Origin: Clostridia bacterium
Lineage (GTDB): Bacteria; Bacillota; Clostridia; Christensenellales; Aristaeellaceae
Assembly: GCA_017549335.1 (NCBI GenBank)
Contig: JAFYVB010000036.1
Coordinates: 26,732-90,731, forward strand
Direction of reading: 5' to 3'
DNA: 64,000 nucleotides
This document shows positions 11,222 through 38,382 of the stretch, piece after piece. Position 1 is the stretch's first letter. Each line of letters starts with the position of its first letter. Both the position numbers and the translations under genes were made by a program. Below the pieces are notes generated by a model. It had not been told where the DNA came from and searched no databases. It saw only the letters and a program-made list of their open reading frames with translations.

Positions 11222-11261
11222 CTAAATACACCTTTGCCAAAAAGGAAAAAGGGCTTTAAAC

Positions 11262-11436
11262 ACTGAATAGCGCTCCATGGCTTTTGCCATGACAGTCAAG
11301 GCGATGTTCTCACCTTTCCCAACACAGTGTATATGCCGTATACCCTGCATTTCGGCGGCTTCCCCTTTTGGCTGCGATCGGTGCCCCGGCAGGGCTCCCG
11401 CAGCGTACTGATGTCGGCCGCGACCTCTATTCCGTT
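11262..11436 (-). ncRNA. lysine riboswitch (L-box) aptamer
   Basis: Read on the minus strand the leader holds the conserved lysine riboswitch blocks in the right order: AGAGGTCGCGGC, then AGTA, then AAAAGGGGAAGCCGCCGAA, then TTGGGAAAGGT, then ACTGTCA and finally GGAGCGCTATT. The closing P1 helix is GAATAG (about 11432-11427) with CTATTC (11270-11265). A terminator hairpin lies 40 bases past the aptamer. The known mechanism is repression when lysine is abundant. This is the main evidence that the following ABC transporter imports lysine. Confidence 0.95.
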
Positions 11437-11463
11437 CATCGTTTTTAGATGAACTTGGAAATT

Positions 11464-36692: not shown

Positions 36693-36883
36693 GGTATCTC
36701 CTGACAAAAAAATAATCGGACTGGTCAAAAACCGCCCAACAAATACATCATAACACAAGGAGAATCGCTTGTAAAGAGGTTTGGTGCATTTTCTCCCGGT
36801 TGCTAAAAAACGGGCTTTGATAGGTGCAAAAAGTTTATGCATTCTGCCGTCTATGCAAAAATCCCCGGTTATGGTATATTATA

Positions 36884-37199
36884 GACACAAGGAAGAGGTG
36901 ATACCAGTGTACAGGTAAAACCCCCGATGGTTCAGCGGAGAGTGAAATATAAGAGAAAAACTGAACCGACAGATGGAAGCTTTCAGCAAAAAGTTTCAAG
37001 AAAACCTTCCAAGAAGTGAGAATGAAAGCGGATCGTGTAAAGAAACGATCAAGAGGGAAGAAAGCCGGAAACGACCTGAAAGAGTTCGTCTGAATCTGCA
37101 GAAAGAGAGGTTGACTACATAGTGGATATCAAGATAGCAGCGAAATAACCCTTGGCGGTCAAAGTGATTAGTTGAACCGTCAAGGGTTATTTCATTTTT
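36884..37199 (+). ncRNA. candidate structured non-coding RNA with intrinsic terminator
   Basis: No convincing gene lies between 36693 and 37275. Within it, about 315 bases on the plus strand are strikingly purine-rich and hold several hairpins: TACC/GGTA (36902-36917), GGTTCAG/CTGAACC (36929-36967), GGAAG/CTTCC (36975-37010), GATCGT/ACGATC (37031-37050), and a final long stem AAATAACCCTTG/CAAGGGTTATTT (37143-37192) followed by CATTTTT, a terminator. A TATATT box at 36875-36880 could be the -10. There is no plus-strand gene downstream, so this is not a leader. Two short frames (30 codons from 36927, 49 from 36973) lack ribosome binding sites. Not tmRNA, 6S, SRP or RNase P RNA by the features I know; the class is unknown. 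Confidence 0.6.
37143..37199 (+). terminator. terminator of the candidate RNA
   Basis: Twelve-base-pair perfect outer stem AAATAACCCTTG / CAAGGGTTATTT with an inner GGT-CAA / TTGaACC pairing, then CATTTTTGG. Confidence 0.8.
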
Positions 37200-37231
37200 G
37201 GATTCTCTGGCCCATGGCCTTTTTTTATTGC

Positions 37232-37260
37232 AAAAAAAAAGCTCCGTCCGAAGGCGGAGC
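37232..37260 (-). terminator. terminator of the BMP-family gene
   Basis: Minus strand GCTCCG / CGGAGC stem (37260-37241) followed by a run of nine T. Confidence 0.88.
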
Positions 37261-37275
37261 GTATATGCATATTGA

Positions 37276-38382
37276 TTACTGCAGGGGAGCGGTGGCCTGC
37301 TGCTTGATGGCAACCCAACCGTCGGGATCGGCTTCAACGCTGAAGATCTCGATCTCGCCCGCGGCAACCTTTTCGCCCAGAGAGGCTACTTCGGCGCGGA
37401 TGGTTTCGGGAACCATGGCCTTGTACTGATCGTTGTCAGCCAGACCGACGATGCCCTCGGCCAGACCGCCCACAATGCACTTGCCGCCGGGGAAGGTGCC
37501 GTCCAGAACGCTCTTGTAGGCGTTGACAACGGCCTGATCGTAAGCCTTGAAGAAGGAGGTGACGATGGTGGCGCGCTGAGCGTCATCGGTCACGGTGAGG
37601 GTCTGGTCGGCGTCAACGCCGAAGGAATAGCGGTTGGCAGCGGCAGCAGCGGCGAATACGCCAAGGCCGGAACCGCCGGAAACCTGCCAGATCACGTCAA
37701 CGCCGTCGGCGTACATGGCAGCGGCCTTATCCTGAGCAACGGACATGAAGGAGGGGATGAAATCGCCGGTGTAGTCGATGTATACCTGAACGCCGTTGGC
37801 GATGGCGGCAGTGCAGAAGGAGCCGGCAAATTCGTTCAGACCGGGCACGTCAACGCCCAGGATGATGCCGACCTTCTTGTCGGCATTGGCCAGAGGCATA
37901 TCGCTGACGGTGATCTTGCTGGCCAGATAGCCGGCCAGATAACCCATATCGGCAACGGAGTAGCAAACGCCGTAAACGTTGCTCAGCGCGGGATCTTCGA
38001 TCTTCTGCAGGTCGGCGCTGAAGAACTTCTGCTCGGGGTACTGCTGGGCAGCCAGCATCATGGCACCGGTGCACTCGGCGCCGCAGGTGACGATCAGGTC
38101 ATACTTGCCGGAGGCAGCAGCGTCGGTGAAGAAGGGGTTGAAGTTGGAATGATCGGCGCCCATTTCGCCACCACCCATTTCGATCACGTCAGCGGTGATG
38201 CCGGGATACATGGAGGCGACCAGGTCGATACCGGCCTTGGTGGCGTCAAAATAGCTGCCGTCGCCAAGACGGGGAACCAGCAGCAGGATGCCCTTGGGCT
38301 GGGTTTCGGCGGTAGCGGGAGAGAAGGACAGGAGCAGAACCAGACACAGAGCAAGAGAGATCAGCTTGGCCAGACGATTCAT
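37276..38382 (-). CDS. BMP-family (PnrA-like) substrate-binding protein, orphan
   Basis: 368 residues. Signal peptide MNRLAKLISLALCLVLLLSF then SPATA; family sequence LVPRLGDGSYFDATKAGIDL, DLIVTCGAECTGAM, VYGVCYSVADMGYLAGYLAS and the ligand loop SFGVDADQTLTVTDDAQRA. BMP proteins bind nucleosides, sugars or autoinducer-like ligands for ABC importers. No ATPase or permease gene is adjacent, and there is no lipobox cysteine. The ATG at 38382 follows GGAGG. Expression is probably controlled by an operator overlapping its promoter. Confidence 0.9.
   Translation of the reverse strand: MNRLAKLISLALCLVLLLSFSPATAETQPKGILLLVPRLGDGSYFDATKAGIDLVASMYPGITADVIEMGGGEMGADHSNFNPFFTDAAASGKYDLIVTCGAECTGAMMLAAQQYPEQKFFSADLQKIEDPALSNVYGVCYSVADMGYLAGYLASKITVSDMPLANADKKVGIILGVDVPGLNEFAGSFCTAAIANGVQVYIDYTGDFIPSFMSVAQDKAAAMYADGVDVIWQVSGGSGLGVFAAAAAANRYSFGVDADQTLTVTDDAQRATIVTSFFKAYDQAVVNAYKSVLDGTFPGGKCIVGGLAEGIVGLADNDQYKAMVPETIRAEVASLGEKVAAGEIEIFSVEADPDGWVAIKQQATAPLQ

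Follow-up and report, generated by a model that had tools for sequence, protein, structure and literature searches.

Very short reading frames with their own ribosome-binding sites occur in several described bacterial RNAs, which we compare here with a predicted RNA gene of about 310 nt. It lies on the plus strand, at approximately 36,888 to 37,199, of a 64,000-nt stretch of Clostridia bacterium DNA (contig JAFYVB010000036.1), hereafter called the window, and is one of 25 members that we find in 20 genomes. As described in the parts of the cited reports drawn on here, mccA, the seven-codon frame of the microcin C precursor, undergoes reiterative translation in vitro (PMC6495379). The RNA of the window resembles mccA: both are short RNAs in which a strong ribosome site precedes a very short frame and a terminator comes next. 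mccA differs in needing a C-terminal Asn (PMC6495379), which the peptides predicted here lack except in one member (G163b), and the present RNA adds a 5′ minigene, a core, and a divergent promoter. No mcc genes were recognized beside the members whose neighbors were read as open reading frames (ORFs), no profile search having been made.

In cry3A mRNA, the STAB-SD similarly places a ribosome site close to the 5′ end, where it could stop RNase J1 (PMC4113751); by comparison, a start and a stop codon follow the 5′ site here in 19 of the 25 members. The regulatory minigenes of axe-txe and LEE1 are, as here, leader frames of two codons that have a ribosome site, but they regulate a downstream main gene (PMC8708949), whereas the only later frame here has 8 to 10 codons. 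The upstream ORF (uORF) candidate of the fthC motif likewise combines a ribosome site with an AUG, and the stem that comes next often includes a stop codon; that motif is exclusive to Streptococcus and precedes one type of gene (PMC11109978), whereas the gene downstream of the RNA described here is not constant among the loci read. The raiA RNA/ModT is a stand-alone RNA in Bacillota (PMC11706538), as this one appears to be. The portions of the literature on STAB-SD, RNA discovery, minigenes, micropeptides, and mccA that we consulted hold no description of the RNA, and an unnamed candidate may sit in the supplements of RNA-discovery papers. A literature search with the peptide and DNA strings matched no paper.

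Results

A predicted stand-alone RNA gene with conserved ends

An earlier note on this DNA had described 36,693-37,275 as a gene-free, purine-rich plus-strand segment with a possible −10 TATATT, no downstream gene in the same direction, and a candidate stand-alone transcript of about 310 nt. Our ORF reading of the window agrees: the plus strand of this stretch carries no gene, the next gene is convergent, and the composition is A/G-rich (A 0.38, G 0.27, C 0.16, T 0.20). Judged from sequence conserved among the members, 36,888-37,199 appears to be an RNA gene that stands alone, transcribed from a promoter of its own and ended by its own terminator. The strong terminator that had been noted is present, with a stem of 18 bp or more in place of 12 bp. 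The predicted gene comprises the following parts.

36852..36880, plus strand: promoter of the RNA, with a weak −35 TATGCA (36852-36857), a 17-nt spacer ending in TGG, and a −10 TATATT (36875-36880)
36889..36902, plus strand: 5′ ribosome-binding site AAGGAAGAGGTGAT, conserved in members
36907..36918, plus strand: start-stop minigene GTG TAC AGG TAA, with equivalents in 19 of 25 members
36919..37091, plus strand: variable folded core with a predicted long-range stem CAGAUGGA..GCUUUCAG / CUGAAAGA..UUCGUCUG
37101..37110, plus strand: 3′ ribosome-binding site GAAAGAGAGG, GAAAG(A/C)GAGG in 24 of 25 members
37122..37148, plus strand: micro-ORF GTG GAT ATC AAG ATA GCA GCG AAA TAA, 8 codons and a stop, identical in G008
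37142..37199, plus strand: intrinsic terminator with 5′ arm 37142-37159, 3′ arm 37176-37193, and T run 37195-37199

We infer that transcription starts near 36887 and stops at about 37,199. The first 190 bases or so (36,693-36,886) are promoter DNA in common with the side of a YgjP-like gene. A TG at 36872-36873 precedes the −10 TATATT. The plus-strand promoter was called by eye from its aligned position in relatives; a consensus promoter scan listed the divergent promoter described below but no plus-strand promoter. Judged in the same way, promoter-like hexamers (TTGNAA-like, a spacer of about 17, TATAAT-like) lie just upstream of the purine-rich 5′ ribosome site in all 25 members, and they are weak in several, the window among them.

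The terminator arms are followed by an A and five T, and a simple terminator scan missed the hairpin because its loop exceeds the 8 bases that the scan allows. Comparing homologues, we find two-sided (compensatory) changes at 6 of 26 terminator pairs in 9 sequences. The predicted fold of 36,889-37,197 (−88.7 kcal/mol, z −5.9) beats 100 of 100 shuffles, and much of this score comes from the terminator.

The two ends are the most constrained parts between the window and G008, a genome of the same genus. The neighboring protein is 57% identical between the two; the 5′ block is 97% identical (32 of 33 bases at 36888-36920), and the micro-ORF with the terminator is 100% identical. The DNA between the promoters is 60% identical and that beyond the terminator 35%. 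The order of the parts is the same across the 25 members.

A micro-ORF ends at the terminator

A frame of 8 to 10 codons begins several bases past the 3′ ribosome site in 25 of 25 members. Its commonest form reads MLDIKSEQK, and the product in the window would read MDIKIAAK. The only departure from the GAAAG(A/C)GAGG site is that of G554, which has GAAAGAGGGG. In every member, the stop codon (TGA in 18, TAA in 4, TAG in 3) stands directly before the CC(C) of the terminator; in the window, it falls inside the 5′ arm. The micro-ORFs differ in length by whole codons only, and the one-base (G163c) and three-base length differences lie between the ribosome site and the start codon.

A stop codon at the terminator foot in all 25 members is also a feature of uORF attenuators, and the RNA might be one: translation of the micro-ORF to its stop would open the foot of the terminator and cause read-through into a downstream gene. 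In the window, however, the next gene is convergent, so that no plus-strand gene follows, and the downstream DNA is unrelated in G008. We thus hold an attenuator to be highly improbable. In Vescimonas fastidiosa, spoVAC lies about 200 bases downstream of the RNA, in the same orientation.

The codons of the frame vary in a manner that suggests selection on the peptide in the wider class. Between the Vescimonas and G554 members, six codons differ, five of them silently (TTA/CTG, GAT/GAC, ATC/ATT, GAA/GAG, GGG/GGA); the single amino-acid change is AGT/AAT. In the 13 members that belong neither to the window's family nor to G436, synonymous changes make up 8 of the 15 variant codons, versus an expected share of 0.22 (P 0.008); this subset was picked once the sequences had been seen, and the binomial calculation treats related variants as independent. 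Frames +1 and +2 show 1 of 8 and 2 of 9 synonymous variant codons (11 sequences). Selection on the peptide is thus supported for the wider class, within this post hoc subset, and not for the window's own family.

The earlier note had considered a small protein less likely, having seen two frames of 30 and 49 codons without ribosome sites. Neither is conserved: in G008, the 49-codon frame has ACG at its start and stops in frame, and the 30-codon frame is disrupted by a 101-base insertion and substitutions. Two much shorter frames, which that assessment had not considered, are conserved and do have ribosome-binding sites.

A start-stop minigene follows the 5′ ribosome site

Minigenes occur in 19 of the 25 members; when the same 48 nt are shuffled with dinucleotides preserved, 1.1 of 25 are expected. 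Counting the start, they have three codons in 15 members and two in 4; they start with ATG (13) or GTG (6) and stop with TAA (13) or TAG (6). Starts and stops interchange, and the codons between them vary. The last sense codon is AGG, AGA, or CGG in 11 of the 19. In the G835 member (L166, minus strand, 1532-1685), the ribosome site with ATG TTC CGG and a stop is triplicated at a spacing of 45-46 nt, two copies ending in TAA and one in TAG. A longer pairing of the 5′ site with 16S rRNA was considered as an idea; no 16S rRNA 3′ end was found in the loci examined.

The core is variable and predicted to fold locally

Between the conserved ends, the core changes in sequence and length, and the distance from the 5′ site to the micro-ORF ranges from 87 to 431 nt among members. 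Even between the window and G008, the core is 79% identical, with the 101 bases inserted in G008. This variability bears on another reading, in which the RNA is a trans-acting structured or base-pairing small RNA whose core does the work and varies, or is exchanged, to suit its targets, the ribosome sites only stabilizing it. The core does fold: alone, it scores z −2.7 (2 of 200 shuffles as good), and the whole Vescimonas RNA scores z −5.0, terminator included. Vescimonas and G554 have much of a core in common. In an eight-member alignment, CGCCUUUUG is common to five (G700 has a variant) and base-pairs in the consensus fold with a stretch resembling CAAAAGG. The variation in neighboring genes among the loci read would also suit such an RNA. 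Set against this, neither the sequence nor the length of the core is shared across most families, unlike the micro-ORF, and we consider a small RNA of this kind unlikely. The interpretation in the earlier note holds in part: the stand-alone unit of about 310 nt, the absence of a known Rfam class, and compensatory changes in homologues are borne out, but what is conserved across families is mainly the 5′ site with the minigene and the 3′ micro-ORF with the terminator, not the fold.

A sponge for CsrA/RsmA was considered and rejected, GGA being not significantly above shuffles in the five members tested (7 in the window versus 7.4 expected). Among eight motifs tried, CGGA is in excess, with 3 in the middle of the window RNA (P 0.008) and 6 in the middle of that of G163c, where 0 of 500 dinucleotide shuffles have as many.

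A divergent promoter lies at a near-fixed distance

A second promoter faces away from the RNA on the minus strand.

36747..36775, minus strand: divergent promoter, TTTACA (36775-36770), 17 nt, TATGAT (36752-36747)
36704..36740, minus strand: start of the predicted divergent transcript, GTTGGGCGG..., with a weak hairpin and a T run ahead of the YgjP-like gene

In 23 of 25 members, outward-facing promoter-like hexamers predict a divergent start at a distance of 136-153 bp from the 5′ site, and in most members these hexamers beat nearly all shuffles. TTGGG stands exactly seven bases past the divergent −10 in 18 of 25 members and in none of 60 shuffles of each region. On the divergent side, 19 of 25 members show a terminator-like hairpin, versus 5.9 expected from shuffles, and the transcript would be a tiny RNA or an attenuated leader of the neighboring gene. 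A YgjP-like match is found in 8 of 11 genomes of the genus. In the six YgjP-bearing genomes of the genus that lack the RNA, no such promoter was seen by eye in the 420 bases upstream, and the promoter therefore seems to be part of the RNA module.

This layout, near-fixed in 23 of 25 members, raises the possibility of a divergent pair resembling a type I toxin-antitoxin system, in which the tiny RNA would control a long RNA with a toxic minigene or micropeptide. The tandem copies in G163 would suit such a pair, as would the 11 of 19 minigenes ending in AGG, AGA, or CGG, since short minigenes can be toxic according to the part of the report drawn on (PMC8708949). Yet the tiny RNA is predicted to pair with its cognate long RNA scarcely better than with those of other members (mean −19.5 versus −18.6 kcal/mol; mean rank 9.5 of 22, in 22 members), and the peptide is very short and charged (8 to 10 codons, e.g. 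MLDIKSEQK), not a small hydrophobic toxin. We regard a toxin-antitoxin pair as a long shot.

By eye, a TTCTCC..CAAAAA-like element, possibly an operator, lies between the divergent promoters (about 36,790-36,815 in the window) and in a similar place in many members.

A ribosome-bracketed RNA is one proposed explanation

We propose, with about even chances of its being right, that the gene makes a ribosome-bracketed RNA that is stabilized at its 5′ minigene and yields a micropeptide. RNA polymerase would start near 36,887 and end at about 37,199, and ribosomes would be expected to bind both ends of the resulting RNA of about 310 nt. By analogy with STAB-SD sites and some minigenes, a ribosome held at the 5′ minigene may shield the RNA from the 5′ exonuclease RNase J1. 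At the 3′ end, ribosomes would translate the 8-10 codon frame ending in the terminator foot. Since frames of about this length can be re-translated without the ribosome leaving, the product may be a micropeptide, which would be MDIKIAAK in the window and, for the greater part of the wider class, MLDIKSEQK or a close form. Between the two ribosome sites, the variable core would act as a spacer and fold locally, and the divergent promoter at its near-fixed distance would belong to the same module.

A wider claim, possible and on balance doubtful, is that these members represent a new kind of gene, with ribosomes held at both ends on frames too short for a protein, an exchangeable core, and near-fixed divergent promoters. 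If so, it would sense translation, trap ribosomes, or serve as a micropeptide factory; in the last case, its frame would be among the shortest conserved coding sequences known.

Apart from the post hoc choice of the codon subset, several observations weigh against the proposed explanation. When all 25 members are counted, 8 of 30 variant codons are synonymous, which is no significant excess (P 0.26). The window's family keeps only the L, D, and K codons (L-D-x-K), the window and G008 only D-x-K, and the rest drifts, so that the peptide may not be the product in that family. Six of the 25 members lack the minigene (G220, both G011 copies, both G219 copies, and G459), and in G554 it has a weak ribosome site. 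The predicted core fold is only modestly better than chance. The divergent start departs from its usual distance in G554 (179) and G877 (86), and the divergent hexamers are no better than shuffles in G436a (25% of 60 as good), G436b (32%), and G554 (77%). Members are sporadic, occurring in 6 of 308 family genomes (two weak rows dropped) and in 2 of 11 genomes of the genus. Finally, the members share descent, and the shuffle controls therefore overstate independence.

The frames are too short to call and the core is too variable for one covariance model, and gene finders and RNA-family searches are thus likely to miss the gene. If translated, it adds a conserved 8-10 codon frame and a natural start-stop minigene, neither of which is easily accounted for by ordinary coding or by the usual functions of small RNAs. 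It raises the questions of whether a 5′ minigene can serve as an RNA stabilizer in Firmicutes and what activity a conserved micropeptide of about nine residues might have.

Relatives were found by several searches

The 25 members in 20 genomes are lower bounds, since many genomes are incomplete and the filters were strict. A DNA search of 60 related genomes gave one clear homologue beyond the window, that of G008. The same search of 308 family genomes added G163, of another genus, with two tandem copies, whose 5′ blocks lie 670 bases from each other, and one more copy where a contig ends. Many DNA-search rows between E 0.01 and 10 were taken as chance. A covariance model of the 3′ domain, built from four sequences, found 8 of the 308 genomes at E 0.5 or better; six were accepted, namely G000 (the window genome), G008, G163, G220, G011, and G219, the last two with two copies each. 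G205 (E 4.5e-4) was dropped because it has neither the ribosome site nor the micro-ORF, and G243 (E 0.11) was dropped as a weak row, one strand of it having been read; the other rows were opposite-strand echoes of members. A second model of nine sequences found four of 396 order genomes at E 0.01 or better: G000, G459, G436 (two copies), and G554.

Searching 72,556 plasmid records with one query, we found an unannotated match in Vescimonas fastidiosa MM35 (NZ_AP023416.1), flanked by a TetR gene and spoVAC. This is the only related RNA in those records; a second weak row lies in a sortase gene. The Vescimonas RNA would measure about 290 nt, with the minigene ATG ACC TAA and a micro-ORF reading MMLDIKSEG. 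Searched with this RNA, 291 class genomes yielded 8 with a match at E 1e-4 or better. A short pattern matched 21 places in 20 of 245 class genomes, of which 8 places are members, one of them new (G768); 10 of the 13 other places were read and all lack the context (L178, L182, and L188 were left out), and a backward control gave 6 matches. Several of these non-member places presumably are nusA. Among 80 YgjP loci, one is a member (L064, JAGAMQ010000106.1, a metagenome-assembled genome labelled Oscillospiraceae), where the RNA is again divergent to the YgjP-like gene. This member and that of Vescimonas are classed in Clostridia or carry the label of a clostridial family. L070, with four mismatches, is not a member, and two-mismatch pattern rows in G150, G191, and G284 were rejected as lying in coding-like DNA (backward control, 1 match). 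A phage origin finds no support in 50,697 phage records searched with a 271-base G436 query or in viral contigs searched with three exact patterns.

The RNA matches no known family model

The RNA has no match in Rfam 15 at the gathering cut-off, and a permissive search gave only sub-threshold rows; this was the check that the earlier note had suggested. The loci of nine relatives also have no match at the cut-off, and a permissive search of Vescimonas was sub-threshold only. Rfam and ARAGORN models give no match to tmRNA, RNase P, signal recognition particle (SRP) RNA, or 6S RNA, none of which the earlier note had recognized. Its suggestion of a raiA-type RNA fails: the window RNA does not match the covariance model (RF03072), and a canonical raiA sits elsewhere in the same genome (G000:C41:184557-184765, 170 bits, cut-off 101.3). 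Such a separate raiA scores above the cut-off in 15 of the 25 genomes searched, G000 and G008 included, and in 0 of 14 control genomes.

Flanking genes and other observations

Neighboring genes differ among the loci read. In the window, they are as follows.

36,692 down to 36,135, minus strand: YgjP-like gene (name from the earlier note), left flank
37,276-38,382, minus strand: flanking gene, right flank, convergent with the RNA

In G163:C41 (L127, 185-1250), two whole modules stand in tandem, each with its own divergent promoter, and their cores are quite different. At L169, L170, and L171 (G711, G738), a segment immediately past the RNA has further copies in the same genomes. The short pattern also matches coding DNA reading ..DIKS.. 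at L175, L176, L181, L189, and L192, whose likeness to the DIKSE of the micropeptide is probably chance. Elsewhere in the window, a lysine riboswitch at 11260-11437 (minus strand, 115.8 bits) is the only Rfam 15 match at the gathering cut-off.
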